A DNA stretch of 64,000 nucleotides, from NCBI GenBank assembly GCA_017506865.1, contig JAFCMP010000168.1, positions 372,001 through 436,000 on the forward strand. Direction: 5' to 3'. Source of the DNA: Tribonema minus. Taxonomy: Eukaryota; Sar; Xanthophyceae; Tribonematales; Tribonemataceae. The first letter of the stretch is position 1. Every line of letters begins with the position of its first letter. The translations under genes and the position numbers were made by a program. The notes beneath the pieces are model-generated. The model ran no database searches, was not told where the DNA came from, and saw only the letters and a list, made by a program, of their open reading frames with translations. This document shows, in pieces, positions 2,831 to 54,610 of this stretch.

Positions 2831-5800
2831 TTAGTTCCAGATGGCGGAGATGTTGTCCAGCGCGCCCTGCACACACAAGTCACGGACAACGGCAGAGAGA
2901 GAGGGAGAGAGCGGTGTGAGATTACAGATGCAAACACGGCATCAGAAGTTCATTCGTGGAGTGGGTGCATGGTCACACTGCTCGCTCGAGTGCAGTCGCA
3001 TAAAAACGCTCCACATTCTTCATCTGCATGACTGTGCATATGGGCACTGTCACGATAGTAGTACTGTTTTGCACCACTTACATGCGCTTGCACACACACA
3101 GTGTTCAAACCAAGTGCAATTAAATTCTCTGCAAACTTCAACTGCAACTGACACAGCCCAACTCCTCGCTTTCACGATGCAGCATCTCGCGCTTGCCACA
3201 TTGACACAAAGGCCAGGTGATTCAGCTGCACTTGGGATTGCTTCCCCTTGCCCGTTAACCACCTGCAGTTCAGGTGTGTACCAGGCACTGAACTTCAAGC
3301 CCTCCGGCCGTCAACCGCGCTCCGCATCACCTCGCACTGCACCACCAGCTTCAGCCCAACCCAGCACTACACAATAGCTGTACTGCGACTGAGGCGTGCT
3401 GCACGCAGCGCGCGCTCACCTCTCGTGCGTGGACATGCCCTGTGCGATTACGCCCCATGGACGCGAACGTGGCCAGCCTACGAGCACTACAAGCACAGAA
3501 GCATGCTGAAGGCAGCCCGCTCGAGCACCACAAGGTGTACTGCCACTGAGGCGTGCTGCACACAGCGCAGCGCGCTCACCTCGTGCGTCGTCATGCCCTG
3601 TGCGATCATGCCCATGGACGCGAGCATGGCCAAGCGGCCGTTCTTGATCTCCTGCAGCTGCGCGGTGGCCTTCTTGGCGGGGTCGGCGCGCACGTTGAAG
3701 GGGTCCAGGTTGAAGTCGCCCGCCTCGCGGCTGCCGTCCTTGCGCCCCGCGGTGATCGCAATGCCGGAGATGACTGCGTTTCGACGCGAGAAAAAGAGAG
3801 TGGCGCGGCGCCGCGGTTTACAGTGAGTTGATAAGAAGTCATCTATAACTTGCTTGTTTGCAAGTGGGCACTTCGCCTCTGAGCGGGTGAAGGTCCTCCA
3901 ACGACAGCACTGGTTATTCACCATGTTTAATGACTTCAACTATTATAAAAAGTGATTAGTTGAGGTTGGTCGCGTTTTTCATTCCTCATCATTTCATATA
4001 CACGAACCAGACGTAGAGCTGTAGGTGACAAGGTGTGGTGAGCGCAAGTGCCTTCATACGTGTGTGTGCGTGCGGCGCAGCGATGGTCGCGCCAGAGGTG
4101 ACCGCTGCATGGAAGTGCTCAAGCCGCCGTGCGTGAAGCATGGTGATGGATTCAAACACAGCCGTTAGCCTAATGCTAGCAGCACACTGGTGGACGCCCG
4201 CGGGGTGCAGGCGCTGGTGCACAGGCTGCCTGAAGTTGAAGTGCACCTGTACCTAAGCTGATCGCTGCTCTCCTAAGAGAAGGACGTCCTGACGTCACGC
4301 CGAGCCGCTTCATCCAGTGGGCTGGAGCCCGCAGCATTGGGGTCCGTCTTATAGCTCAACATAGTAAACCGTAAATGTATGCATGTACATGACCGGAGCT
4401 ATCAGATGAGAAATGACACAAAAGTGTCAGTATATCCAGTGCGCGTGTCAACACCTCTCACGTGCGCGACACATGCCAGCGCCGTACAATCACACGGCAG
4501 CGCTCGGCAGCCCGTGCGAACCTACACGACACATTGCCCAACACATTCACGTTTGCAAGTATAGCACGACACGTTGCACAATGCTCACATTGATGTTCAC
4601 AAGTACAGCTTTGTCACCATTCCAATGCCGCGCTTTCGACCTTGGACCGCCGTCTGAAGAAATGTGCTTGTACACGAATGTGAGCACTGACAGAGAGCCT
4701 TGCCCGCATCACATTCGAGGATAGAGACTCCTACACTATGTGAGCACTGACAGCACGTCCTACTCGCACTCACATTCGAGGACAGATAATGCTACACTAT
4801 GCAAGCACTGACAGCGCGCCTTTGCCAGCACTCACATTCGAGGATAGAGACTGCTACGACGCCCGCGCCCACCACGTTGGGCTTCTCCGCGAACACCTGC
4901 CAGAACAGGTCCATCTGGTCCTTGCCAGAGGGGAATCCTGGGAGGGAGCCGACCTGCGCGTGCGTACCGAGACAGCGGCGCGGCAGTTCATAGGAGGGCA
5001 TGAGATGCGTGTTTGCTCATTGTGCGCCTGTCGTTGCGGCGCTCGCACATTGAACAAGTGCAACTACTGTCCAGTAGTGTGAGACGTGTGTATCATGGAC
5101 AGAGAGAGCGCGGGACATCAGCGCAAGACAACAGTGCTCGTGCGCCAGTCGTGCTGATGCGGCGTCTCTGACCGACTGTGCTGCATGATACCATCTGCCA
5201 AGGCACTAGCATCACGCAACACAGCAAGGGGCACACATGCCTTTACACTCAAGTGCCCATGTACTGCCTGCCAATAAACATGGAATCCCCGCTTCTTCCA
5301 GCACAAAGTCCCCCTGCTCAATATATGCCTTCTCCTCTCCAGGCAGCACTCAACTCCCCCCCCTCCCCAAAGTATGCAATCGCCATGGCCCTCCGGTGCG
5401 TACCTGGTCGCAGAAGAGCACACCCGCGACGGCAAGCATGGCAATACGCCCGTGCTTGACCTCTGCCTCCCGGAACCAGTACAGGTCCAGGCCCAGCTCG
5501 TCCGTCGCCGACAGGTTTAGTGGGTCGAAGCCCACGTCGCCGGGGAGGGAGCCGTCCAGCTGCGATGCACCCAGACACAAACGTTGTTGTTAGATGACCT
5601 GACGCGAAGATAGTCGGCCGAATGAAACAGAATTGGCAAGCGTGTACTCATTGATGGCACTCTGGCCTCGCCGAGTCTCCTGATGACTGCTATCAGCTGC
5701 CAGAAACTCCATCCCCCCTCTGCAGCAGCAGCTCTCCCTCCCGTGCTCCATGCCTCCTGGCTCGCTCCACGCACGCGAGGATGCACCGTGCCCCACGCTC

Positions 5801-6191
5801 ACTTCAGGCGGCATGCAGATGTCCGCAACGCCTGCAGCACTTTTGCTCTCGCCAGGCGGCGCCGCTCTCACCTTCTCGGGCTTGGGCAGGAAGGGCAGGG
5901 ACTTTGATGCAACCATGCTCATGGTGCTGCTGCTCTTCACGGCGCCGGCCAGGGGGGTGGCGGGCATGAATGCCGCAGCGCCACCGGCGAGAGCGAGTAC
6001 TGCTGCTGCCTGCAAGCAATGAGCACATCCCAGCCGGTAGCACGTGAGACACTCGCTAGAAATCATGCTGTCTCGCACCTGTTGCATGACGAGCAGCGTG
6101 ACAGGCGAGCGGCCATGGAACCGGGGTGCGCTCCTGTTTGCGGCAATAGCAAAGCACTCCAGTCTAGCGTCAACACACCCACCTTCATCAT
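2831..6191 (-). CDS. Fucoxanthin-chlorophyll a/c-binding light-harvesting protein
   Basis: Six exons: 6191-6183, 6009-5872, 5559-5404, 4953-4836, 3773-3580 and 2866-2831. All junctions are GT-AG and phase-consistent, giving 216 residues, normal for the family. Residues 1-25 form a signal-peptide-like leader ending GGAAAFMP, the AAAF motif of bipartite plastid targeting across the membranes of a complex red-derived plastid. Helix 1 carries [12 protein letters not shown] (80-91) and helix 3 [10 protein letters not shown] (182-191), the paired Glu/Arg chlorophyll-ligand motifs of LHC proteins; LPGDVGFDP and DFNLDPF precede the two helices. The mature protein would sit in the thylakoid membrane, binding chlorophyll a/c and carotenoid and passing energy to the photosystems. 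The first exon is only nine bases (MMK) and the last encodes eleven residues plus stop. Introns 4 and 5 hold degraded copies of the upstream exon edge (see repeats). The last exon is the least certain. Confidence 0.9.
3386..3640 (-). repeat. Exon-edge duplication in LHC intron 5
   Basis: The 3' end of LHC exon 5 plus its GTGAGC donor (about 3548-3635) is repeated 157 bp downstream in the intron (about 3391-3478). The copy has substitutions and indels and reads [10 protein letters not shown] where the exon reads [10 protein letters not shown]. Intron flanks are duplicated with it. Confidence 0.8.
4672..4852 (-). repeat. 60-bp tandem array at LHC exon 4 donor
   Basis: Three copies, 60 bp apart, of a unit containing the last bases of exon 4 and its donor (CTCGAAT/GTGAGT on the minus strand). 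The true junction is at 4836. The copy near 4775 keeps an intact donor; the copy near 4714 has lost it (GTGATG). Confidence 0.85.
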
Positions 6192-8866: not shown

Positions 8867-9462
8867 GGCACCGGATGCCCCGTCTGCACGATCCTCCTGC
8901 TGTTAGAATTTTGGAGTGGCAGCATCAGTTCATGTTGGCATTGGTCTGGGTGAGCCAGCGCAGCTGCAGACCAACTATGTAGAATGCGGAAACCTTCACT
9001 GCTGCGATTATACAGGCGTCACAGCGGCATGTTTGCTGCAACGGCGGCATTTATTGCTGCTTTGCTCTAGCACAAGTGAGGGCCTTATTAGAACAACCAT
9101 GGTGCGCACCTGCTGGGGGCTCTGCATCATAAGAGCAGTACAGAGTCGAAGGCATGGAGGAGCCTGACGCAGATGCCGTGTAGACGAAGCCGTACGGTCA
9201 GCATGAACCAGCGCTCGCCCCAAGTTCAGTGCGCAGTACACCGAGGGGCCCAAGGCTGGCAGAGCGCACACCGTGCGCAACGTTAGCATGCACCAGAAGC
9301 TTGGGGCGCTCACTTTTTCGGTGACTCACCCTCTGGCGAAAACTTCAAGCTTGAAGTGATAGTGTAATTTGCATCGTACGCCTCCTGGGTGAGCCTGCTG
9401 GCGCAAGCTCCAGCAAAAGCATTTGACAGCGGCAGCTACAGCAGTAACTCCAGGTGAACGCA
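8867..9462. promoter_or_regulatory. Divergent intergenic region
   Basis: About 600 bp between two genes transcribed away from each other, so it likely holds both promoters. I identify no core promoter motif. Confidence 0.35.
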
Positions 9463-11731: not shown

Positions 11732-12358
11732 ATGGCAGCCAACCCGGTTTTGAGCGTCGCGCCCCGAGACCTAAGCTTCCTGCCTCCGTCGCTCATGACC
11801 AGGAGCACCTGCCACGCCTTCCACGATGTGCTGGAGCACTAGCCGGCCCCACGAAGGCATCAGACGGTGGCGGCGGATGCCCTCGGCAGCTCTTGCCTGA
11901 TCATGTGGGCGGTGCAGAATGGCATGACTGTCGCCGTGGCGCAGGCCTCATGCGTCCTCAGGGGCGACCTGGGAGCGCTGCAACTGCTCGGCCGCACACA
12001 TCCAACAGAAAAGTTGTCACAAGAGCACACGTACCTCGCCGCTGAGAGCGGGCATCTGCAGCTGCTGCAGTGGCTACGGGGGCATGTACGCAGCCGTGGC
12101 ATCGATGGCGGAGGTAGATGGACGTGCTGCGCCGCTGCGAAAGGCAGCTACCTCGAAGTGCTGCAAGGGCTGCGCGGGGTCGGCAGCACCTGGGATGAGA
12201 ATGCCACTGCGGCTGCTGCAGAGGGCGGGCATCTCGCGGTGCTGCAGTGGCTGCGCGCCAATGGCTGCCCCTGGGACTCACGAACGTGCACATCTGCGGC
12301 CGAAGGCAGACACCTTGCGGTGCTGCAGTGGGCGCGTGCCCACGGCTGCCCATGGGTC

Positions 12359-12637
12359 TGACGGAACTATAACACCGTGGCAGAGTAGGACACCCAAGGT
12401 GGACCCAATGCAAAGTGCAGAACAGCACTAGACCAGGGCAGGCTGGTATTGCAAAGAAGTGATATTATGTAGATGCTTGTGCAAGTGGAGAAACAATCCT
12501 GACGCAGGGTCGGAATGGTGCTGAACTGGTGCTGGACCAGTACATGGTGGACTAACAACAGTAACTCCACTGTGGTGAGAACCTGTGCAGGTATGTAGGC
12601 ACATGCAAGTAGGGTATGTAAGTTTCATACTCCGTCA
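12359..12637 (-). repeat. LTR, left copy
   Basis: 279 bp. It is the 3' LTR if the element is read on the minus strand, as the adjacent purine tract suggests. Short frames inside it are not genes. Confidence 0.93.
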
Positions 12638-13965: not shown

Positions 13966-14000
13966 ACCTTGGTGTGCCCCGCATCTAGGCCGTCATAACC

Positions 14001-14279
14001 TGACGGAACTATAACACCGTGGCAGAGTAGGACACCCAAGGTGGACCCAATGCAAAGTGCAGAACAGCACTAGACCAGGGCAGGCTGGTATTGCAAAGAA
14101 GTGATATTATGTAGATGCTTGTGCAAGTGGAGAAACAATCCTGACGCAGGGTCGGAATGGTGCTGAACTGGTGCTGGACCAGTACATGGTGGACTAACAA
14201 CAGTAACTCCACTGTGGTGAGAACCTGTGCAGGTATGTAGGCACATGCAAGTAGGGTATGTAAGTTTCATACTCCGTCA
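14001..14279 (-). repeat. LTR, right copy
   Basis: 279 bp and, by eye, base-for-base the same as the left copy. It is followed by the second GGGTC target-site copy. Confidence 0.93.
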
Positions 14280-23400: not shown

Positions 23401-24812
23401 CGGCGGCGCCGGAAGAGGTTGCAGCGCTGCCGACGCCGCCGCTGCGCCGCGACTTCTCCGCGCGGCCGCTGCCGCCGCTGGGCTGCGCCGCAGAGGCTGC
23501 CGCGCTGGACGCGCTCGCCGCCGCCGCGCGCGCGGCGCTGGCGCGCTACCCGCGCGCCACCGCGGAGGGGGCGGACGCGGGGGTCTGGGAGGTTCCCGGG
23601 GGGGAGGTGAGGCTGCTATTGTGATCATCGTGGCGGCGCGCATGTGTCATGGATTGACAACTGCGTCCTGGCATTTATATCAGTAGCGCCCTCGCTGGCG
23701 TGGTGTCAGCGTCAGCGCTCCCTGATGTTGCTGGACAATGTGTGCGCGGCGGAGGGGGCGGAGGCGGGTGTCGGGGAGGTCCCCGGGGGGGAGGTGAGGC
23801 AACGCTATCGCCGTACACATTTGTGTGTGATGTCAGCAGTGGCGCGCGTTTGCCATGCATGCGCGGGCGGCGCCCGGCATCCTTGCCTAGCAGCGCCGCT
23901 GCGCAGATTTCACAGTGTCGCTGGAGCCTCGTGGTGTTGAAGCGCACGCCGTTGAGATACCGCTGTTGCAGACCCGCCATGTGGGTGCGCCGCCTCTGCT
24001 TTTCGCAGGTGGAGATTGTGCTCTAAGTTGGGGCTTGGCGCGCTGAGTTCTTATCTCGTAAGTGTGTACGCGCACTGCGGCTGCGCGGCGTCTGGTGCCG
24101 CGTGCGGAGCGCTGCAGCATGACTGCATGGCGCATTTGCGGGCTCAGAAACCTCTGCGCGTGGTGGTGGACCCCTCAATGGCGGCCATAGCGGTGGGGGC
24201 GCCGCCGCAATGTGGCAGCAGCGCGCCGTACGCGTTGCAGCGATTGCTCTCGCATCACAACGCAGGACTGCTGGAATATGAGCCTCACTCGTAGCCTAGA
24301 GTTTGATTCAGTATCAGCACTCATCGGTTGTCTGGTACGTGACGGCGTACTCGCAACCAAGCATTGATAACGGCCGTTACCTCGCGGTTACGTTTCTCTT
24401 GATTCTCCTAGAAATTACTGCTGTTCAACGCGAATGCGCTCTACACTCACTCAGTAGGCTCGCGCTTGGGCCGCCACTGTCATGTGCTGCTGCTTGTGCA
24501 GCGCTCCGCAGGCTTTCACGTGCGCTTAGCCTAATGCCGTTGAGCACTGCTACTGCTCGCGCGCAGGAGCTGTCGCGGCTCGACGTGCACAACGCTCAGA
24601 CGCTGATCTCCGGCGAGATCCGCTTGTGCCGCCAGTGGATCGCGACGGCGGAGCGCGCGGCGCCGCTGCTGCGCATCGCCGCGGCCGGCGGCGCCGGTGC
24701 GATTATGGGCATCAATTTTGGTGCTGCAGAGGAAAAAGATCGATACGTGCGAGAAGTCGTGTGGCCGCTGATACAGGCAGCGCCCCCGCGCCCGACGGTG
24801 CCTCCTGAATAA
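17417..24812 (+). CDS. SET-domain lysine methyltransferase, SETD6/Rubisco-LSMT class
   Basis: Nine phase-consistent exons: 17417-17530, 18408-18560, 19361-19390, 20299-20496, 20937-21046, 21476-21653, 22332-22484, 23154-23606 and 24567-24812; 544 residues. The split-SET order is clear: GWGVYALEAVPPGALLITIP (first SET part), VAKESEIGRK in a 30-base microexon, the long inserted helical domain, then LVPLADMINHARP (NHx, about 222-233) and LVNYGF (277-280), which form the S-adenosylmethionine and lysine-channel site. A helical Rubisco-LSMT C-terminal substrate-binding domain follows. Targets in this class include Rubisco, aldolase and non-histone nuclear proteins; this sequence does not say which. 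No plastid leader is evident. Exons 4 and 7 appear to end at GC donors (CAG/GCAAGA, AAG/GCACGT). Introns carry copies of exon edges. The last two junctions are the least certain. Confidence 0.85.
18088..18137 (+). repeat. Interstitial telomere-type repeat (CCCTAA)n
   Basis: Several head-to-tail CCCTAA units lie within intron 1 of the SET-domain gene. Confidence 0.9.
19376..19595 (+). repeat. Copied donor of SET gene exon 3
   Basis: The exon 3 end and donor (GGCCGCAAG/GTGCGC) with about 25 bp of intron recur about 177 bp downstream (near 19557-19592) with few changes, in the same orientation. Confidence 0.8.
20206..20310 (+). repeat. Copied acceptor of SET gene exon 4
   Basis: The acceptor and first exon bases (GCGACAG/ATCTGCGAAGC) occur twice, about 83 bp apart. 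The downstream copy opens the real exon; the upstream copy loses the frame after CGAAGC. Confidence 0.8.
23560..23805 (+). repeat. Copied donor of SET gene exon 8
   Basis: About 50 bp covering the end of exon 8 and its GTGAGG donor (to about 23612) recurs about 188 bp downstream (to about 23803). Both copies keep the donor, so either could be used. Confidence 0.8.
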
Positions 24813-31600: not shown

Positions 31601-34600
31601 TTAGGGGTGGGGTCAGGCCTAGCCCCAAGAGTAGTGGATCGCCTTTGGGGGGGGGGCTACCTGTCGCCTTCGCGCAGCACACGCGTGCCCCAGTCGGCTC
31701 CGCCGTGCCGCCTGTGGCACACGCTACCAATGGGCGTGTTCGTGCGTCCGCGCCTGCTGTCTACGTTCCGCCATGCCACCTCTCAGTGCGCCGTCCGCTG
31801 GCGTGCTTCATGTCGCACACGTGGCGCTGCAGCGGCTCACTCCCCTCAGCACTCAGCGCGCGGCGATGCAGGCGGCGGCGCTGCTGACGCAGACGACGCC
31901 TCTCAACATGCGCAGACAGCTGGCATGTCCCATGGCGGCGCAGACACAGCGCAGCGCGGCGCCACGGCAGCTCACTCCCCTCAGCGCCTGCGACACTCCG
32001 CCCCGTGCGGCACTGAACATGAAGGTTACTCCATTGACATAGCCACGTATGAGAACCAATCACTGGGGTTCTTGAAATCTGCGCAGGCGGCGGCGCTGCT
32101 GACGCAGACGACGCCTCTCAACACGCGCAGACAGCTGGCATGTTCAGGGCGCGGACGCAATGTCACTTGGCGCCGCGGCAGCTCACTCTCCTCGGTGCAC
32201 ATCCGCTCCTCCCTCTGCCTGCGGCGCGCAGGCGGTGGCGCTGCTGACGCAGATGATGGCGGGCGCGCTGCGCGCGCTGCGCGAGGCGGGGTGCGAGCTG
32301 GTGGGCGGGCACACGTCGGAGGGCGCGGAGCTCGCGCTGGGGTTCGCCGTCAACGCCGTCGTGCAGCGCGATGAGATCCTGCGCAAGGTGAGTCAGCGAG
32401 CAGGGGTTAGGGTTAGGGTTGAGTTAGGTCAGGGCGTTGGAGGGCGTGGAGCTCGCGCTGGGGTTCGCCGTCAACGCCGTCGTGCAGCGCGACGAGATCC
32501 TGTGCAAGGTGAGCCAACGCGCGAGATGGGGTTAGATGATGGGTAGGGTTAGGGTTAGGGTTAGGGTTTGAGCAAAAGAGGAGCCATACACACGCGTGTA
32601 CGCGTGCTGTGACTCGCGCGTGCTGTGGCGCGATGGGAACTCGCGCGGGCTCTGGGCACGATGGGCGTGCACCGCCTGCCGCTGCTAGTGCGTGATATCG
32701 TTTTATTGTTCTGAGCCGGCGCTCATGTGCAGCCAGCTGCGCCGATGCATCTCAGGCGTACGCACTCTACTGCCGTATGTTCCAAGTCCGCCGTTGCCTG
32801 CGCCAGCGTATTGGGAGGCGCAGAGCCCATCGATGCCGTTGCATGACTCGATCCCCGTGTCTGCAATCTGCACACGTTGCACGCATCTGCCAGGCAGCTA
32901 GCTGCGCACAAGTTCGTCACTGTTGCGTGGCGCTGCTCAGCGCTGGACGCAATGGCAGCACGTGCATGGCTGTCTGATGTGAGTCCTGTGCGGACCGGAG
33001 AGCCGTGCGCGTGCGTCGTCGCGGCGCGCAACAGTCCTACGCGTTGCGTGACAGATCAGGCACAAGCGCGTAATGCAGCAGCGCTCGACGTGTGCGCATC
33101 GCACGGCGGCGGCGCGCGTGCCACGGCCGCAACGTCAAGTGCGCGTGGGCGTCGTCGCAATGCAGCGCGCCAGACCTCTACCACGACACACATGGTCGCA
33201 TGCGGCAGCGCTCCGTTGCGCTCTTGCCGCGACAACGGCGGGCACGACGCGTCCACCGCCGCTGCCGCGCCGCCGCCGCCGCCGCCGTGCCGCTGCGATC
33301 CTGCTAGCGCGTGTCCGATAGGTCGGATCACCAACCTTTCTCCTCACTCTATTGGCCGTTGACGATCTTGGTCGCGTGCAGGGCGGCATGCGCGCCGGCG
33401 ACGCGCTCATCCTGACCAAGCCGCTGGGCACAGGCGCGGTGCTGGCGGCGGACATGCGCGGGCGCGCCGCAGGCGCGTGGACGGCGGCGGCGCTTGACGG
33501 CATGCTGCGCAGCAACGCGGCGGCGGCGGCGGCGCTGCGCGCGCACGGCGCGACCGCCGCAACGGACGTCACCGGCTTCGGGCTCGCGGGGCACCTGCTG
33601 GAGATGGTGAGGGGGGGGGGGGGGGGGGGGGGGAGCAGCGGCGCTCAGCGTGCAGCAGCACGCAGCGCGCGCAGTCTTTCTTTCGTCAGTGCGCAGTCTT
33701 TCAGCGGCGAGCAGCTTCAGTGAGTTTTGACTCTGATGAGTGCGTGGACGGTGTTGGCTTTATGTGCGGCGACAGCAGCGGGCAGCGGGCCTGAAATGGA
33801 CGCTCCGGCAGCGCCGACGTTGGCGGCGGCGGCGGCGTGCTGCACAACCACCCGGCCGCATGCATGCGGCACGTCACCGTGCGTGTGGTGGCAGGACACC
33901 TAGCTGAGATGGCGCGATTAGCCATAATGTGCAGCCACAGTGCCCACCACTCAGGCAAATTGCCGTCAATGACAGGAAGGTGCCTGGCTGGAACGTCTGC
34001 AGCGTGCCTGTCACCAGCATGTGTGACAACGCTGGCTCCTCTTGCGCCATTCCATATGCCCCCCCCCCCCCCCTTCTCTCCCGGCCGATTCTACTGCAAC
34101 AGGTGCGCGCCACCAACGCCGACAAAACCGCGGCGGCGGAGCCCGTGGCGGCGCGCCTGCGCCTGGATGCGGTGCCGCTGCTGCCCGGCGCCGCGCAGTG
34201 CGCCGCCGCCGGCACGGCGTCGTCGCTCTACCCCGCCAACGTGCGCGCCGCAGCGGGCGCGGTGACTCCCGCGCTGTCCGTCGCGGAAGCGGCGGCGGCG
34301 GCGGCAGCGGCGGCGGCGCTTCACGGTGACGGCGGCAGCGCGCACGGCGTTCCGCACGGCGGCAGCGGCGGCGGCGCCGCCAACGGCAGCAGCAAGAAGG
34401 GCGCCAGCGGCGGCAGCAGCGGCGGCGCCGTCGCGCTGGCCAGGGCGGCGGCGGCGGCGGCGCACGCGCTGCTGTTCGACCCGCAGACGGCGGGCGGGCT
34501 GCTGGCGGCGGTGCCGGCGGAGCGCGCCGCGGCGTGCGTGGCGGCGCTGCGCAGCGCCGGGTACGCGCACGCCGCGCGCATCGGGACGGCGGTCGCAGCG

Positions 34601-34690
34601 GGCGCAGACGGCGGCAGCGACGAGGAGGTGCAGTGCACGTGGGGGGAGGAGGAGGAGGGGGGCGGCGGCGAGGGCGACGGTGCCAGCTGA
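28635..34690 (+). CDS. selD: FAD/NAD oxidoreductase-selenophosphate synthetase fusion
   Basis: Six exons: 28635-29107, 29479-30485, 30846-31564, 32232-32387, 33382-33606 and 34103-34690; all GT-AG and in phase, 1055 residues. Residues 11-27 are a membrane anchor or signal. The N-terminal half is a type II NADH-dehydrogenase-like flavoprotein: GGGHSH (68-73), [17 protein letters not shown] (second dinucleotide fold) and [10 protein letters not shown] (FAD). The C-terminal half is selenophosphate synthetase, making selenophosphate from selenide and [12 protein letters not shown] with catalytic Cys (about 577) and Lys (580), [48 protein letters not shown] and [13 protein letters not shown]. The active site is Cys, not selenocysteine. 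Such fusions are known in bacteria and some algae. Long Gly/Ser and Ala inserts interrupt both halves. An alternative start is ATG 28788. Confidence 0.93.
31855..32260 (+). repeat. Copied acceptor of SelD exon 4
   Basis: The start of exon 4 with its acceptor (GCAG/GCGGTGGCGCTGCTG) is preceded in the intron by two copies, near 31870 and 32085. They read GCAGGCGGCGGCGCTGCTG and are followed by near-identical downstream sequence (ACGCAGACGACGCCTCTCAA). Confidence 0.88.
32318..32522 (+). repeat. Copied donor of SelD exon 4
   Basis: About 80 bp of exon 4 end plus donor (to 32398) recurs exactly 121 bp downstream, ending GTGCAAG/GTGAGC at 32509. Only a few bases differ. Telomere-type GGGTTA units lie between and after the copies. 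Confidence 0.92.
32527..32572 (+). repeat. Interstitial telomere-type repeat (GGGTTA)n
   Basis: Four or so tandem units in SelD intron 4. Shorter ones lie at 32404-32421 and 31598-31612. Confidence 0.88.
33611..33633 (+). repeat. Poly-G tract, about 23 bases
   Basis: It lies directly after the donor of SelD exon 5. Confidence 0.85.
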
Positions 34691-37040: not shown

Positions 37041-40000
37041 TCAGCGCGGCGGCCGCGCCACGCCCGACGCCACCTTGACCACCATGACGGACGGCAGCAG
37101 GCTGTTGCTGCGCGAGGGGCCCGCGGAGCCGCCGCCGCGCGCGCCCCTGCCCGCGCCGCCGCCCTTAGCGGCGGCGGCGGGCGCGGCGGGCGCAGCGGCG
37201 GCGGGCGGGCCGCGCGCCGCCGCCGCCGCCGCCGCCGTCGCCTTGGCGGAGCGCGCCAGGTGCATGACGGGCTGCGCGGCGTCGTCGCTCGTGACGGCGA
37301 GGTCCGCGTTGAGGCGCACCGTCAGCTTGGTCTCGAGCAGCATGCTGCCGCGCGGCGACGAGCCGCCGTAGCCGCCGAGCCCGCCGTAGCCGCCGAGGCC
37401 GTCGCCGCCGTGCGCGCCGCCGCTGCCGCCGCCGCTGGCGGAGGCGTCGCCGGGCAGCGGCGGCGCCTGCGCGGCGACGAGCGTGACGCGCTTGGCGGCG
37501 GTGCCCTCCTGCGGCGCATGTGCGGCGGACGAAGCGGCGTCAGCAGTGATCAGAAGGCGCCTGAATGGGTCCGCCCTGCGCACACACGTCTGTCGTGTAC
37601 GGAACTGCTGCAGCGCCACGTGTGCGGGCTTTGTTGTTGACCGCGCTGCTCAGCCGTCGCCGCAGCGCTACCTTCTGCGCAACTTGCGCACACACTGCGG
37701 ACGTGGAGGCGTCCAAGATCAGCAGCGCCTGGTCGCGGGGCTCACCTCTGGGTCGTCGCCGCCGCTGAGGCCGCGCCGCAGCGACACCTGCCGCTGCAGG
37801 CCGGCGGCGGAGAACGCGGCGCTCGCGCCGAGCGCCGCCGCTGCGGCGCGCCAGCCGCTGACGCCGCTGTGCAGCGCGCGCATCTCCACGCCCGCAACGG
37901 CGGCGTCGCGGCACGCCTGCAGCAGGTTGGCGCGGTCGGCGGCGCTGGTGATGCCTGCGGCGGCGGCAGCGGCGGCGGCGGCGGCGGCGGCAGTTGCGCA
38001 TGAGGAACGCAGAACAAGTGTGTTGCTGCAGCGGGCAAGGAAGCTCGGCGAACGCGGCCTTCAAATCAATGAAATCGCTACCTGCGGCTCTGCAGTGATC
38101 AGGGCAAAGGTGGGGCGCGGCTGCCAAGCCAGCTCGCCCGCCCGCTTTGCTCGCCGCAGATCAGAAGGCGCTGCAACCCGTGCCCCCCCCCTGCACTTTT
38201 GGGTTAATGTTACGATCAGGGTTAGGGTCAGGTGCAGAACACGCACGGGCGGCGAGGTCCGACTCTTGCTCAGCTGCTTCGCGTCCGCCCTGCCTAATCC
38301 CGATTCAGGCAAACCGACGGCCGCTTGGCATCCAACAACAGCTTTCAGCGGTGCTGCACATCAAGCCTTCGCATGGCGACTCCATCTGCGCCTCACTCGC
38401 CCTTTTCCGGCCGTCGCCGGTGAGGGCGGGGTTATGCCAGCGTGGCTCTACCTCTAGCGCACCCAGAAACTTCAACTCATGGTCCCACCTTCAAGGCAGC
38501 GCCATTTGCATCCGCCGCACCCACCCGCTCCTCGCAGGGCGTCAGGGTCTGCGAGCCGCCCCAGAAGTACAACTTCAGTAACTCGGCGTCAGACTATAAA
38601 AGTGCACTCACCAGCTTCTTGCAGGTCGTCGCCAGTGAGGTGGGGGTCCGCGAGCGTGGCGCTGCGCCGCCCCCCGCAGCAGAAAGTTCAGCATCAACTT
38701 CAACAAGTCAGCATCAGTCAAGTGCAATTCAACAACTCAGCATCAGACTTCAAGTGCACTCACCCGCTTCTTGCAGGTCGTCGCCAGTCAAGTCGGGGTC
38801 CGCGAGTGTGGCGCCGTCAACGCCCGCATCCGCCAGCGCGTCCGCCCAGAAGCCCAGCCGCAGGTAGCGCAGGAACGCTGTCACCTGCTCAGGGGGGGCA
38901 CGCGAGTCGAGTCAGGGGTCAGGGTCAGAGTCGAGGTAGCGCAGAAACGCCGTCACCTGCTCAGCGGCGTGCGAGTCGAGTCGGGGTTCAGGGTCAGAGT
39001 CAGTGCTCAGGTAGCGCAGGAACGCCGTCACCTGCTCACGGGGCGCGTGCGAGGCGAGTCAGGGGTCAGGGTCAGAGTCAGAGTCAAGGTAGCGCAGGAA
39101 GGCTGTCACCTGCGCAGGGGGGGTGCACGAGTCAAGTCAGGGGGCAGAGTCAGAGTCAAGGCGCAGGTAACGCAGGAACGCTGCCACCTGCTCAGGGGGG
39201 CGCGTGCGTCGCGTCGGGGGTCAGGTTCAGCGTCAAGGGGCCGGTGCGCAAGTCGAGTCGGGACTCAAGGTCAGAGTCATCCGGCGGGAGGGCCAGTCGA
39301 GTTGGGGGTCAGGGTAAGAGTCAAGGGGCTGCGTCACGCCAGGCTGCGTGCAGGTGCACGAGGGGCTCACGGTGAATTGCTCCTAGTTTCAACTGCAAGT
39401 GTGATGTGCTCCGAATGATGTGGCATACACGCGGTTGAATGCTGCGTTGCTGGGTCCAGTGCTCGATCGCCCTGGGGTGGTGTCAAGGCTACATGACAGC
39501 AGCGAACGCGCAAGGTTCGTTGAACTCCTCTTACCCCCCCCCCCCCCCCACACACACACACACACGCAGCACTGAGTAAATGATGCCTACCACCCTCGGA
39601 GCCGCAGCGTCAATGCCCCCCTGCGCGCAGACACTGAGCCTTCAGCGCGCAGACACTGAGCCTAGAGGCAGACGTCAGTGCCGGAAAGCACAGCATATAC
39701 GCCTGAGCGCTGCTTCACTAACCCTAACCTTAACCCTAACCCGACCGCAAACCCTAACCCCCTACCCCTGACCCTACCCTTGACTCAACGCAAAGCACAC
39801 CCGAGCGTGTGGCGCGTTGGCGCATGCGTGCATGTGCAGTCGTAACCCCTAGTCCTTGACCCTAGCGCTAGCCCTAATCCCGAGGGGGGACATCTCCCAA
39901 GTGACGTCCCTGCACTGTCTCTGGTCGATGGCACGCTCCTGAGCGCTAATATTAACCCTAACCCTAGCCCGTGACACGTGCTCCGCACGCCAGGCGCGTG

Positions 40001-40783: not shown

Positions 40784-40835
<52 letters not shown>

Positions 40836-41094: not shown

Positions 41095-41125
<31 letters not shown>

Positions 41126-45811: not shown

Positions 45812-48800
45812 ATGTCCGGCAAGGGAGCTGGCAGTTGGCCGGAGGGCGTGGAGATGGGCTACGCGACGTGAGTTATTGTAGCCTTCCTGTATGGCATGTG
45901 TTGGCGTCGGAAAAAGGCCTGATTCAGGGATCCTGCCGTCCCGTTCTCCGCTCAAGTGGCGCACAAGTGTCGGTCAGGACCCGTGTTGCTCTGGCAAATG
46001 CTCTATGCACGTGGATGTTCAGTCGGGCCCGGCATGACTGTCACGTCAGATAGCATCAGCGATCAACAGAGAGGATAAATTTTTCGTGCAAGATATGCGC
46101 TTTCTCACACGCTGTTGGGCATTGCGCGGTTCACAGGCAGCTCGTGCACGCCGGAATAGACCCGGACGAAAAGACAGGCGCCATCTTGACGCCTATATAT
46201 CAAGCAACCACCTACGTGCAGGAGTCAGTGGACAAGTATTTGGCGAAAGGCTTCAGCTACAGCCGCACCGCCAATCCGACCGTCAAGGTACCCACTTGTG
46301 TGCTGCCTACCCATCTCAGTATTACAGTACGCATCGATCTTAAATATGGTCTCATGAGCATTCATCAACTGGTGGCAATCGACTGCTGGTCTAGGAGGCT
46401 CCATAAAATAGCAGAAATGCTTTGAAATTGCAAGGTCAACTTGAGGTTGCATGCATTCGGCCTTTTGGGCAATCAGTTCTGAAGACAGATGTAAATTTGC
46501 CTTGGAACACTCAGTTGTCGTCATATGGCACTAATAATCTGCTGCATGCCAGCTGCCCCATGATGAGTCCTGCGACTCTCATGTGCACTACTACCTGAAG
46601 TCATCGGCGCATACCCAGGGGGGCACAGCTAGGTCCATCACAACTCATTGCAAACAGCATGCACGCATTGCACACAGCATGCACACCAAACGGTGTGTGA
46701 GCGAGATAATTACCCCCCCACCGCTGCGCATTTGAGCGCTGGCGTGGAGCGTCACCACTCACCCCCGTTTTACTTCAACTCACGTGCAGGCGCTGGAGGC
46801 GAAGATCGCGCAGCTGGAGAACGGCGCGGGGGCGTGCTGCGTGTGCACGGGCATGGCGGCGACGGTGACGGTCATGACGGCGACGCTCAAGGCGGGCGAC
46901 CACTGCGTCATTACGGACTGCTCGTACGGTATGTACGCCCTGCCGTTCCATGCGTAGACTCGACAACGACATGTACAAGTTTAATGTCTTATTCATCACT
47001 CACGTGGGCCCGAACTGAACGGTCATGACGGCGACGCTCAAGGCGCGCGACCACTGCGTCATCACGGACTGCTCGTACGGTACGTATGTCCTGCTGTTCC
47101 ATGCGTACATTCCTCGATGATCAACATGTACATTTTTTTTCAACAACAATGTTTTATCTGTCACCTACTTGCGCCCGAACTGAACGGTCATGACGGCGAC
47201 GCTCGAGGCTGGCGACCACTGCGTCATCACGGACTGCTCGTGCGGTGCGTCCCTGCCTCTTTCCATGTACTTCTACGGATTCCTTGATAATCATCATGTT
47301 GTGTTTATCTATGTACCTGAATTGAGCGCGCATCTGAAAATAATATGTCACGGTCACGACGGCGACGCTCAAGGCGGGCACTGCGTCATCACGGACTGCT
47401 GGTACGGTACGAACGTCCTGCTTCTCCATGCGTAGTTTATCGATAACAACGTGTACAAGTTGAATGTTGTTTATCACCCACTTGCGCCCGAACTGAACTG
47501 TACCACCGCAGTACTTTGAACCCTAACCCTAGGGTTGGCCGCACACCCACATGCAGCACACGCGCATGGAGCACACGCCGCTAACCCTGACCCTAACCTT
47601 CAGCCTCGCATTGCCACTCTGCCTGTGCTGAGTGTACCCCACGCCCAAACTCCGCGTTGAACGGTGGACGTTGCTGCCGCACACATCAGTACAGTACAGT
47701 GCAGTATAGTACATGCATGCGCACCCAGCGCCGCGCTGCGCCACTTTTGCCTCTCAGGCGACACCAACTGCGTGGCCTGCGCCATGATCTCTATATGCGT
47801 CCATTGAAGTATGGCACACACGCGCACGCAGGAGATGTAGTGCCGCCTTGCGTCGCCTTACATGCTCTACACACTACTTGAGTTTTTTTCATTTGAAGTA
47901 CGGTGTACATGCATGCACAACAACGTGCTGTCGCGCCGGTGCGCTGCAGGCGGCACCACGCGCATGGCGCGTTTTCTGTACTCCGCACTTGAAGTTCATG
48001 GAAGTAAATCATACAAGCGGCACCAACCGCGCGGCGCGCATCATGTTCTTTAGGTACACTCGTCAGTTGAACTACGACATACACGCATACCCAGAAGGTG
48101 TAGCTGAACCTTGCGTGACCCCATGCACTCTGTACTCGAAGTATATAGGTATGTTGAAGTACGATGAAACATGCGTACCCACGTCGCGTTGTCGCAATAC
48201 CCGCGCCGTGTCGCTGCGCCCGCAGGCGGCACGAGCCGCGCGGCGCGCGTCATGTTCTTGACACTTGTCCGTTCAAGTACGACACACACGCGCACCCAAC
48301 AGGGGTAGCTGAACATCGCGTGATTTCACGGCACTCCTATATACTTGAAGTGCATATATTTGAAGTACAATGAAATATGCATACATGCCTGCGCCGCGTC
48401 GCCGCACCCGCAGGCGGCACGAACCGCGCGGCGCGCGTCATGTTCTCGGACCTGGGCATCACGTTCAGCTTTGTAGACTTCCGTGACCCCGCCATCGTGG
48501 AGGCGGCGATCCGGCCCAACACCAAGCTCATCTTCAGCGAGACGCCCGCCAACCCCACGCTGACGCTCACGGATCTCGACGTGAGTGAAGGCGTTCATTT
48601 GGTCCATGTCATACATGCACTGACGCTACTGGCTTGCCCTCACGACAGATTCTGACGTGAGTGTGTGTGTGGGGTAGGGATTGCTGCATGGGGGTCGTGG
48701 CGGCGAAGCATCTGCAGCATGACGTTGAAGCTGAAGTTGACGCACCACGTTCATCTCCAGCGAGACGCCCGCCTACCCCACGCCGACGCTCACGGATCTC

Positions 48801-51800
48801 GATGTGAGTGAGGGTGGAGGATTCATACATCTGCAACATGTAACAAAATAGTGTTTGCTCCCCTTCACGGGTCTCGGCGTGGGTGAAGGGGGCGCGTTGC
48901 TGCGTTGAGGGTTCCTGGGCGGCGCATGCACGACTGCAGTGTGAAGTTGAGGTTGAAGTTGATGCACCGCTCATCTCGAACCGTGCGATGACGCTCATGG
49001 ATTTTGACGCGAGCAAGGGGAAGAGGCGTCATGTACGTTGCATGTACCTATCTGCGGGGCCTCGCGCCAATCTAGCAGGTACCTCTATGTGAGAAGGCCA
49101 GTGAATTCATGCCACGTCTGTCCTCGTTGTCTGGATAGCTCAAGTGTGCTACTTGCTTGATTCACGGCCGAAGTACTTCGAAGTATAGACCACACTTGGG
49201 CACGCTCGGGAGGTATACATTGTATTATCATGCAGGGGTTACAGGGGCGCGTGCGGCCAGCGCGTGCAGGCAGCGTATCAGCCCGTGCGCAGCATCAACT
49301 GCCTTCTCCGCGCCTGCGAAAAGGGTCAGAGAGAGAGCGAGAGCGACAGATTTGCTCAACTGCTGAGGCAGTGCACATCTTGAAGATGCGGAGAGGCAGG
49401 CGGCGGCGGTCGCCGTGCGGGGGGAGGGTGCAGCCGATATGCGACGTGTGCTGCGCTGGAGTCACACCCTAGTCTTAGGGTTAGTAACCCTAAGCGCCCT
49501 TGATAGACACCAGCGCCCACCTTCTCGAAACAGGGTGCGCGCGCCGAGAAGCGCCTGCGCAGCATGCGGCAGAACCGCAGCGCCCGTGCGACACGCGGCC
49601 AGCACGCGACATGAGCCGCACGTGCCGGCACCAAAAACCTAACACGGACCCCGTGTCTCTTCTGCGCAGGCGGTCTCGGCGATTGCCAAGGCGCACGGCA
49701 TCCTGCACGCGTGCGACAGCACCTTCAGCACGCCCATCATGGTCAAGCCCATCGACCACGGCTGCGACCTCGTCATACAGGTACGTGCGTTGGCAGGTAG
49801 GTATGCTTGCTCGCCCGATTGCACCAAGCGCGGGATGTGGGCCTGCGACCCTCCGATCACGACCTCAACAAGCTAGCAACCTGCTCTATCTTGCCTCTGT
49901 GTTTCAAGAAGCGGCTCGCGCAGCAGCGACGGCCGCTGCCCGTGCCCCTGTGCAGTGCAGTCGAACGGCGGTGGCGTCGGCGGTGGCGTCGGCGGCAGCG
50001 CCGGCGGTGGCGATGGCGGCGATGCCAGCGCCGCCGTCGCGCGCGCGCATCGAGACAGTGCCCGCTGAGCACTGCTGTGCTTGGTGTTTCCTGCGAATTG
50101 GCGCGTCATGCGCTTCCGTCCTCTGCGCGCCGTATGCCGGCAGCCGTCCGCCTGAGCGCTGTGACGGGCTGCTGCTGCTGCCCCTGGGCATGATGTGGCA
50201 ACGGTCCTTGTTCCCTGTCCCCCGCTGCTTACTGCTGCTGCTGCTGCTGCCCCCGTTCGGTCTCGCGCACAGCTGCCGCACCTCTCTCCGCCGCGTGACT
50301 TCCCTCTTTCTGTCTCGTCCTTGCCTCTCGTTGTGCGTCCTCCCAGTCGCTCACCAAGTATTACGACGGCCACAACCAGACGGTCGGCGGCGCGGTCATC
50401 AGCGCGACGAAGGAGCTCGACGAGCGCATGCACTTCTACCAGAACATACACGGCAACATCCTCAGCCCGCAGTGCTCCTTCTACGTGCTGCAGGCGACCA
50501 AGGTGAGGGTCCGCTTTGAAGTCAGTGTTGAGGTTCAGAGCTGCTGCCGTTGGTGCTGCAGGCAATTCAGGCGAGCGCCGCGCCCCGGGACGTTTGTGCG
50601 AGGGGCGGGGCCTTTTGTGCTCGCTTGAAGTCAGTATTGAAGTTCAGGGCGTCTGCTTCAGCGTGTGTGCTGGCCCGCGGGCCATTTGCGCTGATGCACG
50701 GCGCCTGGTGTCCAGGTGAAAGTTGTAGCACGCCATGCTCTTCAACTTCAGTGCCGCGTCGCTGTGGCGCGTACATGCATTTGGTATGTGCACCCGCAGA
50801 CAGATCTGGCGCCCTGAGCAGAAGAACGAGCTCGCGGCGCGGTACAACTGCAGCGTCTGTAGCGAGGGCGCGCCGTGCTCAGTGCTGCCGAAGTTCAGGG
50901 TGTGTCGGCGCCTATCGCCATCACACTCTCACAGCGCATGCACGCCGGCGTCCCTTGGTGCATGATGGCGACGCTCACGCGCTAGCCCACGGGGCTGTGT
51001 GCACTGACGCATGGCGCCTGGTGTCCAGGTGAAGTTGTAGTGCGCCACGCACTTCGACTTCGGTGCCGCGTCGTTGTACATACCGCGTATATGTTATTTT
51101 TGTATGCACCCGCAGACGGATTTGGCGCGCTGAGCAAAAGAGTGAGCTCGCGGTATAACTGTAACACCTGCAGCAAGGCTCGCTGTGCTCAGTGACCTTA
51201 ACGTCGTCAGGCCTGATGAGTATTTGCCGAGGTTCTTGTAGCGAATGGCATGTCCAACACACACCTGCCATTTGTTGATTCATGGCATCATAAAGCTGTG
51301 CTCACCCGTGCGTACCTACATACCCTCTTCGCCCTGCGCCGCAGACCATGGGCCTGCGCTTCAAGCAGCAGTGCGCGACGGCGCAGAAGGTCGCCGAGTT
51401 CCTGGAGACTCACCCTAAGGTGCGCACAGCGCGAGAACGGTGCAGTTTTGTTGAAGTTGAAGTTGCTGCTGCCCCAGCAGTGCTCGCTGATGCGTGCCAC
51501 TGATGTTTCATGCAGTGCACACTCATGACCCTGGAGACCCACCCCAAGGTACGTGCCAGCAGCGCGATGGAAGATATGGTGTTGAAGTTGAAGCTGTGGA
51601 GGGCCCTGCTCGGTCACCGACGCGAGTGTCTTGCGGGCACTAGGGGGGAGGTTGCGGAATGTTTATGGGGAGACAGGTTGGTGCTGATGCTCCGTGCGGA
51701 GCGCGCGCTCGCTTCGCTGCATGCTCAATGTGTGCACGCGCTGTCTCAACGTGATGTTGCTGCCCCATGAATGAGCTGAGCTTTGCTACGCCCAATGCGT

Positions 51801-54508
51801 GGCGCCGTGTGAACCATCATCGTGATGCGGTTGCCCGGTCTGTGCAACGCCACCACGTAGGTGAGTTGTGCTTTTTGAATGGGCACACACGGTGTTTTTG
51901 GGCCCCTGACAGAATAGTTGAAGCTGGATTCAGCGAGTGAGGGAGCACATGGTGGAGGGCACCACCGCCTGTGCATCTGTGCAGTGCGCGGCTCGCAGCA
52001 TTCATGTCAGATAAATTGTGAAAGTCAGCTGTTTGCAAGCGTTTTGACATGGGCAGTTTGCATGTTTCCAAAACCAACTTCCTTAATCAACACTTGGGCA
52101 GGACTTGATCACCTCACTTTAGTTTTCGGTCAGCATACACGCGGTCAGACGACGCCCATAGCAGTGGGTGCCTTCTGGTTTGCCATCTGTGTCTTTGACA
52201 GTGCCCATTGCTGGATTACGGAGCATTCCCTGGCAGTTCAGGAAGGACGCAGGATCCTTCACAAACCACTTCTCTCTTTTTGCGCCCCAGCTCTCCCACC
52301 TTTTCTCTGCTGCTGTGCATTGGCAACGGTTGCCTGCCCGCACAGCCAGCATTCCAACCCGCTCTTTGCTATTGAACTTGAACTTGCAGGTGCAGACGGT
52401 GCATTACCCCGGCCTGGCGTCGTTCCCGCAGAAGGAGCTCGCCGACAGGCAGCACAAGGGCGGCGTCCACGGCACCATGCTGTGGTTTGAAGTCGCCGGC
52501 GGCACCGAGGTCAGACACTCTTGAAGTTGCAGGACTTGAACTTCCCTAGCGCTGTTCCACTGCGATGATCAATGAACAAAGTGAGGCTTCGCACACGCTG
52601 GTCGATGTTCGCTGTTGTGTACGCTGACGCGAGGTGTGGCAGCGTCGTGGAGTCGTTCAAGGGCGGCGTCCACAGCACCATGTGGTTTGAAGTCGCCGGC
52701 GGCACTGAGGTCAGATAAGTTGAAGTTGTAGTACTCGAGGCAACGAGCAACTGTGCCGCGAGCCGCTTTGGGCTGACCTGAACCTAATCCTGACCCCAAA
52801 AGCGGGCCTAGCCACACTGACGTACATGCAATGTATCTAGCTGTTTGCCCACTTCAGAGATTTGCATCGGGCTGCGCTGTTGGACAGCCAACGGATGTGC
52901 GTCAGGAGTTGCACTTGACAGTTGCTTGCGTTGACAGTTGCATTGCGTCCAAAGTTGCACTGCGAGCCGTTCGCGACCTTCAAGCGAGCTGCACGCCAGT
53001 GTACTCTGTCGTTCCGAACGCTGGCACAGCACGCGCTGCCAGCGCACCTTACATGCTGTTTGCTGCACCTCAGCACGCACACTGTGCTGCAGCAGCATAC
53101 CCCGGTCCCCTCTCACGTAGCCCCCCCCCCCCCCCGTCCCCTTCTCAGGCTGGCCGCAAGCTGATGGACTCCGTGCAGCGCCCGTGGTCGCTGTGCGAGA
53201 ACCTGGGCGCCACGGAGAGCATCATCACGTGCCCCGCCGTCATGACGCACGCCAACATGCTGCAGGTACGCGCTGCGCGCCCGAAGCCGCTGCGTACTCA
53301 CGCTGTAGTCATTCCGAGTGCGCACGAGCCTGGTGTGGTGAGCGCTGACTTCTGTGCGCTCCGCTTGCGCGTGAGCTTCAAGGCCGTGTGTCATCGCATG
53401 CCCCCGTGCCAGTAACACGTACTTGAAGTAATAAGTCAGGTGTGCGCTCAGACAACACACGCGCGCGCATACGCGAGACGCGCGAGAGAATATGGGCGGT
53501 TGTTCCGAGCAGGCGCAAGCCTGGGGCGCGCGGCGCCGTGCACGGACGCAGGGTCGCCTCAGCGCATGTGCGCACTTCGAAGTACATGCTGCCGGTGAGA
53601 CACTGTCAGACTGTCACACGACATGTAGATTCCGTACAGAAGCTTCGAGTTGGATGCCATTCATCTGGGCTTTTTCGCGCCCTGAGCGAGAATTAATGAA
53701 AAGTACATAGTGCACGTACGTCGTGACGCACATCGACATGGTACAAGTACGCGCCGGCGGCCGCGTGCATGCGTTCGCGAGATGCTACTCTGCGTGTGGG
53801 CAGTTTAGTCTCCCAGGCACGAGCCCGGAAGGCGCGCCCCGCGGCGTGCACAAATACGTCAGGACCGCGTGCGTGCATGGGCGCCGCCCGCGTCCGTTGA
53901 GCTGCGCGCTTCCGCAGATGTTGTTTGAGGCGGCGCTGTGTGCTACGCGACACACTCCTCCGGGGAAGTGCGCAGCAGCGCGCACCGCAGCCTCGCGAGA
54001 CAGCGGTGGATGCGCGCGGCCTGATGGTGCCATTGAGGCGCAGATGCGGCTCAATCGTGCTGCACCAGCAGCGCGACCGTGGCGGAGCGTAGCAGACTGC
54101 CGCGTCACCAGCCCGCTCGCGCGCGACGCGTCGCCGCCTGCTCTGGTTCAGCGCGCCGCGTGCGCGCCGATGCCCCCCGCGCGCCCGCGTGCGCGCCGCG
54201 CCGAGGCCCCACTTGCGCGCGCGCGTTCCAAGTAGCACGCGACCCCTGATTCTGACTGCCAGCTGCGCGATGCCAGAGTGGATGACGCTTGTGGACTAGC
54301 GACCGCGAACGTACCTGCAGTACCCAACTCACCAGCGCCGCTGTGCTGCACGCATGCCCCCCCCCCCCCCCCCTGCCCCCCCCGCGCACGCGTGCAGGAG
54401 GACCGGCTCAAGGTGGGCATCACGGACGGCTTCGTGCGCGTGTCGTGCGGCATCGAGGACACGGATGACCTGCTGCGCGCCCTCAAGACGGCGCTCGACA
54501 ACCTCTGA
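45812..54508 (+). CDS. PLP-dependent Cys/Met metabolism enzyme (cystathionine gamma-synthase/lyase family)
   Basis: Ten exons: 45812-45867, 46137-46287, 46790-46928, 48414-48580, 49670-49780, 50347-50502, 51345-51419, 52390-52509, 53149-53265 and 54398-54508; all GT-AG and in phase, 400 residues, the usual family length. Landmarks: TPIYQATTYV, YSRTANPTV (60-68, phosphate binding), CVCTGMAATVTVM, CSYGGTNRAAR, SETPANPTL, HACDSTFSTPIM, and SLTKYYDGHN with the cofactor lysine at 212; then LGATESIITCPAVMTHANM and a C-terminal GITDGFVRVSCGIED. The fold would catalyse gamma-replacement or gamma-elimination on homoserine esters, cystathionine or methionine; sequence alone does not separate synthase from lyase. 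No clear organelle leader is seen. Introns hold many copies of exon borders, most strongly around exons 3 and 4, and make up over 85% of the gene. Confidence 0.93.
46858..47412 (+). repeat. Four tandem copies of exon 3 end with donor
   Basis: The last 61 bases of exon 3 with the donor (donor GT at 46929) recur three times downstream, with donors at 47080, 47245 and 47407 (periods 151, 165 and 162). Each copy runs from GGTCATGACGGCGACGCTC to GGACTGCTCGTACG/GT or close variants, and all four keep GT. Confidence 0.95.
47750..48450 (+). repeat. Tandem copies of exon 4 acceptor
   Basis: The real acceptor at 48413 (GCAG/GCGGCACGAACCGC) is preceded by related sequence with AG ending at 48225, 48017 (weak), 47949 and 47757, roughly 190 bp apart. 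Upstream intron motifs (ACACGCGCACCCA-like, AGGTGTAGCTGAACC-like) repeat in register. Confidence 0.85.
48520..49015 (+). repeat. Decaying copies of exon 4 donor
   Basis: The true donor is at 48581 (GATCTCGAC/GTGAGTG). Related junctions follow at 48657, 48804, 48879 and about 49009. The copy at 48804 is the best preserved (GGATCTCGAT/GTGAGTG); the last has lost the GT (GAC/GCGAGC). Confidence 0.8.
50730..51190 (+). repeat. Two-copy repeat resembling exon 7 acceptor
   Basis: Blocks at about 50735-50890 and 51045-51190 share CTTCAACTTCAGTGCCGCGT-like and GCACCCGCAGAC-like sequence about 310 bp apart. Each contains a CGCAG/AC junction loosely like that of exon 7. Confidence 0.6.
51391..51556 (+). 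repeat. Copied donor of exon 7
   Basis: CTGGAGACTCACCCTAAG/GTGCG at 51403-51424 recurs as CTGGAGACCCACCCCAAG/GTACG, with its donor GT at 51550. Confidence 0.85.
52459..52720 (+). repeat. Copied donor of exon 8
   Basis: The exon 8 end, from GGCGGCGTCCAC to GGCACCGAG/GTCAGA (to about 52516), recurs near 52660-52717 as GGCACTGAG/GTCAGA with a three-base deletion. Confidence 0.88.
53600..53706 (+). mobile_element. Non-LTR retroelement 3' tail in an intron
   Basis: About 105 bp matching the retroelement 3' end (GACACTGTCAGACTGTC... to TTCGCGCCCTGAGCGAGAAT and an AATGAAAAGTAC tail), inserted in intron 9 of the Cys/Met enzyme gene. Confidence 0.8.
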
Positions 54509-54610
54509 TGCGACGCGTTGCCGTGCGCGCTGAAGGCATCGCTCCACAGCTTTTCTGCTGAGGCGTGTGTGCTGCTCGAGACGCAGCACGCGCTCGACAA
54601 CCTCTGATGA
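54487..54610 (+). repeat. Copied end of terminal exon
   Basis: GCGCTCGACAACCTCTGATG, the last codons, stop and next two bases of the Cys/Met enzyme, is repeated about 100 bp downstream in the 3' flank. Confidence 0.85.

Follow-up and report, generated by a model that had tools for sequence, protein, structure and literature searches.

How do long introns come by their length? The question is raised by a 64,000-nucleotide stretch of the genome of Tribonema minus, a yellow-green (xanthophyte) alga (positions 372001-436000 of contig C168, JAFCMP010000168.1, in an assembly of 158 Mb in 554 contigs), which we call the window. Long introns are mostly ascribed to transposons and drift. An initial annotation of the window, made from its letters alone, reported that most of the larger introns in at least five spliced genes contain direct copies of the adjacent exon edge together with its donor or acceptor site, and proposed that introns here grow by duplication across splice junctions. 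Having analysed these genes together with gene families elsewhere in the assembly, we consider it probable, well short of certain, that short duplications across exon borders, biased toward exon edges and removed by splicing, lengthen introns in this alga. The history of this growth would then still be legible in many long introns, at the borders where it took place.

The mechanism that we propose would work as follows. Local DNA duplications, mostly with periods of 110-220 bp, would repeatedly straddle exon-intron borders in T. minus. A duplication spanning a donor would leave an extra exon end plus GT just within the intron, and one spanning an acceptor would leave an extra AG plus exon start ahead of the real acceptor. 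With the outermost site still in use, the copy would be spliced out and the mRNA would be unchanged; repetition would build arrays of up to eight copies, and these, eroding like the rest of the intron, would account for a considerable share of long introns. The duplications would be non-uniform along the gene and concentrated where ~20-90 bp of exon is included. Duplication would take place at the DNA level and fixation would be near-neutral under exon definition, and the bias might stem from break-prone exon edges or from selection against other placements.

Exon edges and splice sites are copied within introns of several gene families

The final set was a sample of the genome, 84 modelled introns with 168 junctions: 30 introns from chaperonin genes, 15 from proteasome/ATP-synthase genes, 23 from the light harvesting complex (LHC) family, and 16 from the window. 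The gene families were chosen blind to repeats, and comprised 30 LHC loci, ten chaperonin regions, and eight proteasome/ATP-synthase regions, the last being 8 of 15 regions found, with their repeats unseen at the time of picking. Loci L058 and L059 were picked in the knowledge that gaps of ~1.5 kb separate their exon matches, and L057 was chosen because it has a sister copy, L060, which serves for comparison only and stands outside all counts. We scored as a junction copy any intronic copy of the intron's own exon edge plus splice site that reached at least 19 of 51; against shuffled flanks, 40-bp windows scored at least 16 in 0.34% of 580 draws.

Intronic copies of the junction's own edge were present at 41 of the 168 junctions (23 donors and 18 acceptors), with 81 copies in total. 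By set, copies were found at 15/60 junctions in the chaperonins, 15/30 in the proteasome/ATP-synthase genes, 2/46 in the LHC family, and 9/32 in the window. In the window, the repeat finder and self-comparison show copies arranged head to tail at a roughly constant period, and the smallest periods of junction-spanning clusters range from 62 to 302 bp across all sets. At the donor at position 3711 of L042, the TCP1-gamma locus, there are eight copies, four of which score 42-47 of 51. Aligned copy pairs have a median identity of 80% and are spread over many contigs, which makes assembly error an unlikely source of the copies.

Introns of at least 450 bp contained junction copies in 33 of 60 cases and those of at least 1000 bp in 12 of 14, compared with 1 of 24 introns shorter than 450 bp. 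This richness of longer introns in copies is expected if copies add length. The stretch between a junction and its farthest copy accounts for 23% of all intron bases, for 26% of bases in introns of at least 450 bp, and for 39% in the proteasome/ATP-synthase set.

Copies in the sampled introns are biased toward exon-intron junctions

Multiple results support a preference of the copying for junctions. First, in introns of at least 600 bp, copies were found for 15 of 27 donors, 9 of 27 acceptors, and 274 of 1139 intron-interior windows. In the 58 introns that have interior windows, the copying rate of those windows predicts 16.6 copied junctions, and 29 were observed (P = 5e-5); for genes outside the window 19 junctions were copied versus 12.1 expected (P = 0.0055). 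Second, 34 of 47 repeat clusters spanned a junction (11/19 in chaperonins, 14/16 in proteasome/ATP-synthase genes, 1/3 in the LHC family, and 8/9 in the window). Outside the window, the figure was 26 of 38; random placement predicts 9.6-14.0 spanning clusters, and a twofold detection advantage raises this expectation to 14.6-19.4 (P = 6e-5 to 0.016). Third, in introns of at least 450 bp, the last 45 bp of the exon was copied at 36/116 junctions (28 of them strongly), the next 45 bp at 12/116, and the segments beyond at 2/114 and 0/112. Finally, strong copies were found for 24% of exon edges versus 2-9% of intron segments.

Uniform neutral tandem duplication is the alternative that survives best. 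Local repeats would then arise everywhere in non-coding DNA and overlap junctions by chance, and their exon half would remain recognizable for longer. Copying at short range is indeed widespread (it affects 438 of 4280 windows from ten 10-kb regions), a neutral simulation reproduces the exon-versus-spacer contrast of the decoys that we discuss below, and a first, smaller test gave only a slight difference, with copies at 12/58 junctions and in 138/829 interior windows. The bias is visible only with the larger set and a neutral model, because simulated interior windows mostly exceed junctions. Run with the same detection, neutral simulations yielded 29-36% spanning clusters, and of four further simulations, one in which exons changed slowly gave 32% and three with frozen exons and more indels gave 28-31%. 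These values fall far below the observed 34/47, which is about twice the chance expectation, and the probabilities of 26/38 under the four further simulations are 3.6e-6, 2.7e-6, 1.3e-6, and 2.5e-7. Strong copying of intron segments was simulated at 0.5 to 1.4 times that of exon edges, and the observed excess at exon edges is again much larger. Independence from exon borders, the null expectation for tandem repeats, therefore does not describe the placement seen here, and we regard uniform duplication as unlikely. Junction-spanning repeats no commoner than others would have told against the initial proposal of growth by junction-straddling duplication; in the 84 introns they are commoner, and the proposal gains support outside the window, in families picked without regard to repeats.

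Against a junction-biased origin of intron length, several points have to be set. Longer introns also give more room for finding copies, and acceptors taken alone are not significantly above interior windows (P = 0.15). When the period is the unit and detection is taken to be biased twofold, the excess for genes outside the window reaches only P = 0.016. For the chaperonins alone, P is 0.066 with the period as the unit, or 0.47 with the twofold correction, and 0.0017 with the aligned length as the unit, but 0.059 with that correction. The LHC family is low in junction copies; its introns are mostly short, and junctions at L012, L014, L021, and L022 that visibly carry copies were lost to its filters, which depresses the figure. 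The junction bias is uneven between gene sets. In L057, moreover, the real donor is followed by another spacer than decoys 1 and 3, whose spacers resemble the start of the L060 intron, so copying was not always of one clean tandem unit.

Proteins support the outermost splice sites, and decoys may be silent

Strong decoys look like intact sites. Among the 58 of them, the GT is preserved in 30 of 33 donors and the AG in 21 of 25 acceptors, with a median change in splice-site score of 0.0 for donors and -1.03 for acceptors. Spliced protein alignments leave the decoys unused, and the sites supported by proteins (the NCBI T. minus proteins P0001 and P0241, and foreign proteins) are the outermost ones. 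The NCBI T. minus TCP1-gamma protein, for example, aligns at full length and gives every one of the eight introns of its gene the outermost sites, although four of the eight contain copies. In 7 of 7 introns with both kinds of copy, donor copies lie upstream of acceptor copies; no decoy acceptor is thus followed by a decoy donor, and no pseudo-exon arises. A study of alternative splice-site use reports that long flanking introns favor the splice sites closest to each other across the exon (PMC9225289), and such a preference is the condition that silent decoys require. We infer that exon definition operates in Tribonema.

Decoys might instead be retained by selection, for instance as splicing regulators or as markers of long introns. 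The preservation of GT or AG in most strong decoys fits this idea, as does the finding that, in 36 of 37 decoy-decoy pairs, the exon parts are more alike than the spacers. We rejected the latter as a signal of selection, as an identical contrast arose in a neutral simulation in which copies were picked in the same way; the similarity of the exon parts reflects ascertainment, in that copies were found through exon similarity. Frame-shifting indels in 13 of the 58 strong decoys also argue against retention, and so does the absence of a whole array from one of two copies of a gene. Loci L057 and L060 are these two copies, either paralogues or haplotigs, with a shared exon that is 97.0% identical over 302 bp. 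After this exon, L057 has three donor copies and L060 has none; before it, L057 has one acceptor copy and L060 again has none. The two loci share a donor array at the preceding exon, and they also share one acceptor copy of the exon that follows. The difference between them is one of copy number and may reflect either gain or loss. Selection on decoys seems to us a poor prospect as the explanation of the arrays.

Copying anchored at junctions, and inserted elements

A different possibility is that copying is coupled to splicing or transcription, through template switching on pre-mRNA or through sites of pausing or R-loops, with the junction as an anchor. More than 90 bp of exon was included in only 3 of 34 spanning clusters, with a search that extended 150 bp into the exon; intron segments adjoining the junction were seldom copied strongly (8/91 and 2/113); and spacers vary within one array. 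These features would fit an anchored process. The copies include intron sequence, however. In addition, when coding-sequence ends served as a control for exon edges in general, 1 of 14 edges at the stop, where no splice site is needed, was also copied (of 16 such ends, 2 had too little flank and another was just subthreshold at 18.5, and flanks were mostly short). Coupled copying is, in our judgment, about as improbable as selection on decoys. Introners have been described from algae, the stramenopile Aureococcus anophagefferens among them (PMC7789003). For the introns studied here, introners or other inserted transposons can practically be dismissed, as the initial annotation had argued, since each array copies its own exon and an all-against-all blastn of the 84 introns (E <= 1e-4) gave no cross-gene matches except two L005/L006 paralogue pairs.

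We thus return to short, exon-edge-biased duplications as the preferred explanation. A stronger form, in which duplication is targeted to splice junctions through a coupling of exon ends to transcription, splicing, or chromatin and drives most of the growth of introns in this lineage, is conceivable, and we hold it to be rather doubtful. If it were true, the spliceosome would routinely select among several near-identical sites.

Relation to known sources of introns

Tandem duplication of an exonic AGGT segment can create a new intron between the two copies (PMC3443670). The shared feature is an exonic tandem duplication that supplies splice sites and intron sequence; unlike those introns, the Tribonema copies sit within an existing intron, recur in arrays, and leave the outermost sites in use, and the outcome is longer introns rather than more introns. 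In a potato RdRp gene, a tandem duplication crossing an intron-exon boundary gave a new intron whose donor came from former exon sequence (PMC4974935). There too the duplicated segment crosses the intron-exon border, but the potato example is a single case with a new intron, whereas in Tribonema there are several families, many copies, and no new intron to be inferred. Direct repeats of 4-30 bp near both intron borders have been read as insertion scars (Rogers and Bendich 2025, PMC11782384). Direct repeats at intron borders are the common point, but the Tribonema copies involve one border, take in ~20-90 bp of exon, and lie within the intron. Introners (PMC7789003) are comparable in that they supply intron sequence genome-wide in algae and protists; they consist of similar introns that recur as families at numerous loci and bear inverted as well as short direct repeats, whereas the Tribonema sequences are private to each exon.

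Tandem duplication is thus already known as a source of introns. Among the open-access PubMed Central papers that our searches listed, none describes long introns that are commonly built from arrays of exon-edge copies, and none reports the Tribonema genome. Such arrays make duplication-driven intron growth testable in natural genes, and with up to eight similar splice sites in competition they do the same for site choice by exon versus intron definition.

Junction copies in the window

Within the window, the copies have the same orientation and are decayed, as the initial annotation described, with periods of about 61-223 bp, close to its estimate of ~60 to 210 bp. The LHC gene (2831..6191, minus strand; exons 6183-6191, 5872-6009, 5404-5559, 4836-4953, 3580-3773, and 2831-2866) has a translation identical to an NCBI T. 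minus light harvesting complex protein (P0001), and spliced alignment of a Vaucheria protein (P0002) places its junctions identically; the next named matches include Vaucheria and brown algae. Donor copies had been claimed after exons 4 and 5, and both are present. The end of exon 4 with its donor is followed by two downstream decoys in three 61-bp units (4678..4857, minus strand), and the end of exon 5 with its donor (3513-3632) is followed by a decoy at 3352-3475 (3352..3632, minus strand), with a period of ~161 bp and 82% identity.

The gene for a Cys/Met PLP enzyme (46141..54508, plus strand) has exons at 46141-46287, 46790-46928, 48414-48580, 49670-49780, 50347-50502, 51345-51419, 52390-52509, 53149-53265, and 54398-54508; exon numbers count a possible first exon at 45924-45968. 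Two foreign proteins, P0121 and P0123, gave the model by spliced alignment, its junctions agree with those read by eye, and the joined exons are 84% identical to P0121 across 100% of the query. The following features are all on the plus strand. Repeat comparison, sequence reading, and the junction-copy search all identify three decoy copies of the exon 3 end and donor (46868..47501). Three decoys, scoring 21, 30, and 37 of 51, precede the real acceptor of exon 4 (47754..48446; exon start 48414), as had been claimed, and the donor of this exon (48520..49030; exon end 48580) is copied strongly at 48743-48814 and again, weakly, near 48978, where the third copy lies. The exon 8 donor (52455..52738; exon end 52509) is copied at 52658-52738 with 86% identity, and the exon 9 donor (53221..53760; exon end 53265) has a weak copy 444 bp downstream that scores 21 of 51. 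Of the donor copies claimed for this gene, those of exons 3, 4, and 8 were therefore borne out, and that of exon 7 proved weak (18 of 40). The stop-codon end of the gene is also copied downstream (window positions 54463-54650), with a score of 22 of 51, and is the one copied edge among the 14 usable coding-sequence ends mentioned above.

Decoy exon edges resemble coding sequence and thus present a hazard for annotation; those of the Cys/Met enzyme produced additional tblastn matches. Its 120 best protein matches include no protein named Tribonema minus, though the exons form an open frame. The public T. minus model of this enzyme may be absent or garbled, perhaps because of the decoys.

Copies at both borders had also been described for SelD exon 4 and for the SAM exon, and all four are found. 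In SelD, whose junctions come from sequence reading, acceptor copies lie upstream of the exon 4 start at 32232 (31868..32256, plus strand), and the donor (32314..32559, plus strand; exon end 32387) has a copy at 32435-32559, 85% identical at a spacing of 121 bp. The SelD pieces come after a long reading frame on the same strand (window positions 29441-34678), and a fusion protein is possible. The SAM donor edge and its copy (38600..38814, minus strand) occupy 38600-38662 and 38752-38814, 92% identical and 152 bp apart, and the acceptor edge forms five units including the real one, spaced 72-78 bp (38820..39235, minus strand). For SET, a 92% identical copy of the exon 8 end and donor (23562-23613) lies 187 bp away at 23749-23800 (23562..23800, plus strand), in agreement with the earlier claim. 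The acceptor copies claimed before SET exon 4 amounted to a short similarity of ~20 bp, seen by eye, and the repeat comparison lists none at exon 3, where no separate check was made. SET and SAM are putative genes, with names and exon numbers taken over from the initial annotation.

Gene models and filters

Repeats in the window were located by self-comparison, a tandem-repeat finder, and direct reading of the sequence. Final gene models came from a spliced protein aligner that was checked on known genes; a self-training gene finder predicted too many exons and was abandoned. Homology-guided models, which had supplied the nine LHC-family introns of the first, smaller test, were later superseded by the spliced aligner, and a voting list of 93 LHC-family junctions entered no count. 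We left out five candidate introns from the chaperonin and proteasome/ATP-synthase sets, together with exon pairs separated by more than 30 profile positions. In the LHC family, introns that failed filters on site, exon length, or score were also removed, and 23 were kept. Nine loci were excluded by list, namely redundant LHC loci, the LHC locus of the window (L011), and L001. Placed exons shorter than 50 bp were counted as intron, and a few long introns may conceal a missed exon. Searches of Rfam and a phage collection gave no match.

L051 yielded no intron. At positions 180-840 of this locus (C51:21979-22639), three consecutive partial Pfam matches fall on the same chaperonin positions, in a pattern like that of an acceptor array, and were left uncounted. 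Echo-like matches in the chaperonin Pfam search were read as decoy exon edges.

Other repeats and motifs

Telomere-like TTAGGG/CCCTAA stretches are ~fourfold denser in introns, with 28 in 59.6 kb versus 12 in 100 kb (ten random 10-kb regions); examples lie at window positions 47518-47600 and 32390-32440. We discarded the idea that these motifs are repair scars at array edges, as their median distance was 272 bp, compared with 295 bp for random points. Relative to dinucleotide expectation, the 84 introns are strongly enriched in the octamers TTGAAGTT and AACTTCAA and in runs of C or G. Elsewhere in the window, a 280-bp stretch is repeated at 100% identity (12358-12637 and 14000-14279) beside arrays of a WARANGCPWD-type repeat, a 663-bp match of 99.5% identity with a shift of 560 bp occupies 55467-56689, and a dispersed repeat of ~105 bp occurs between 53590 and 59268.

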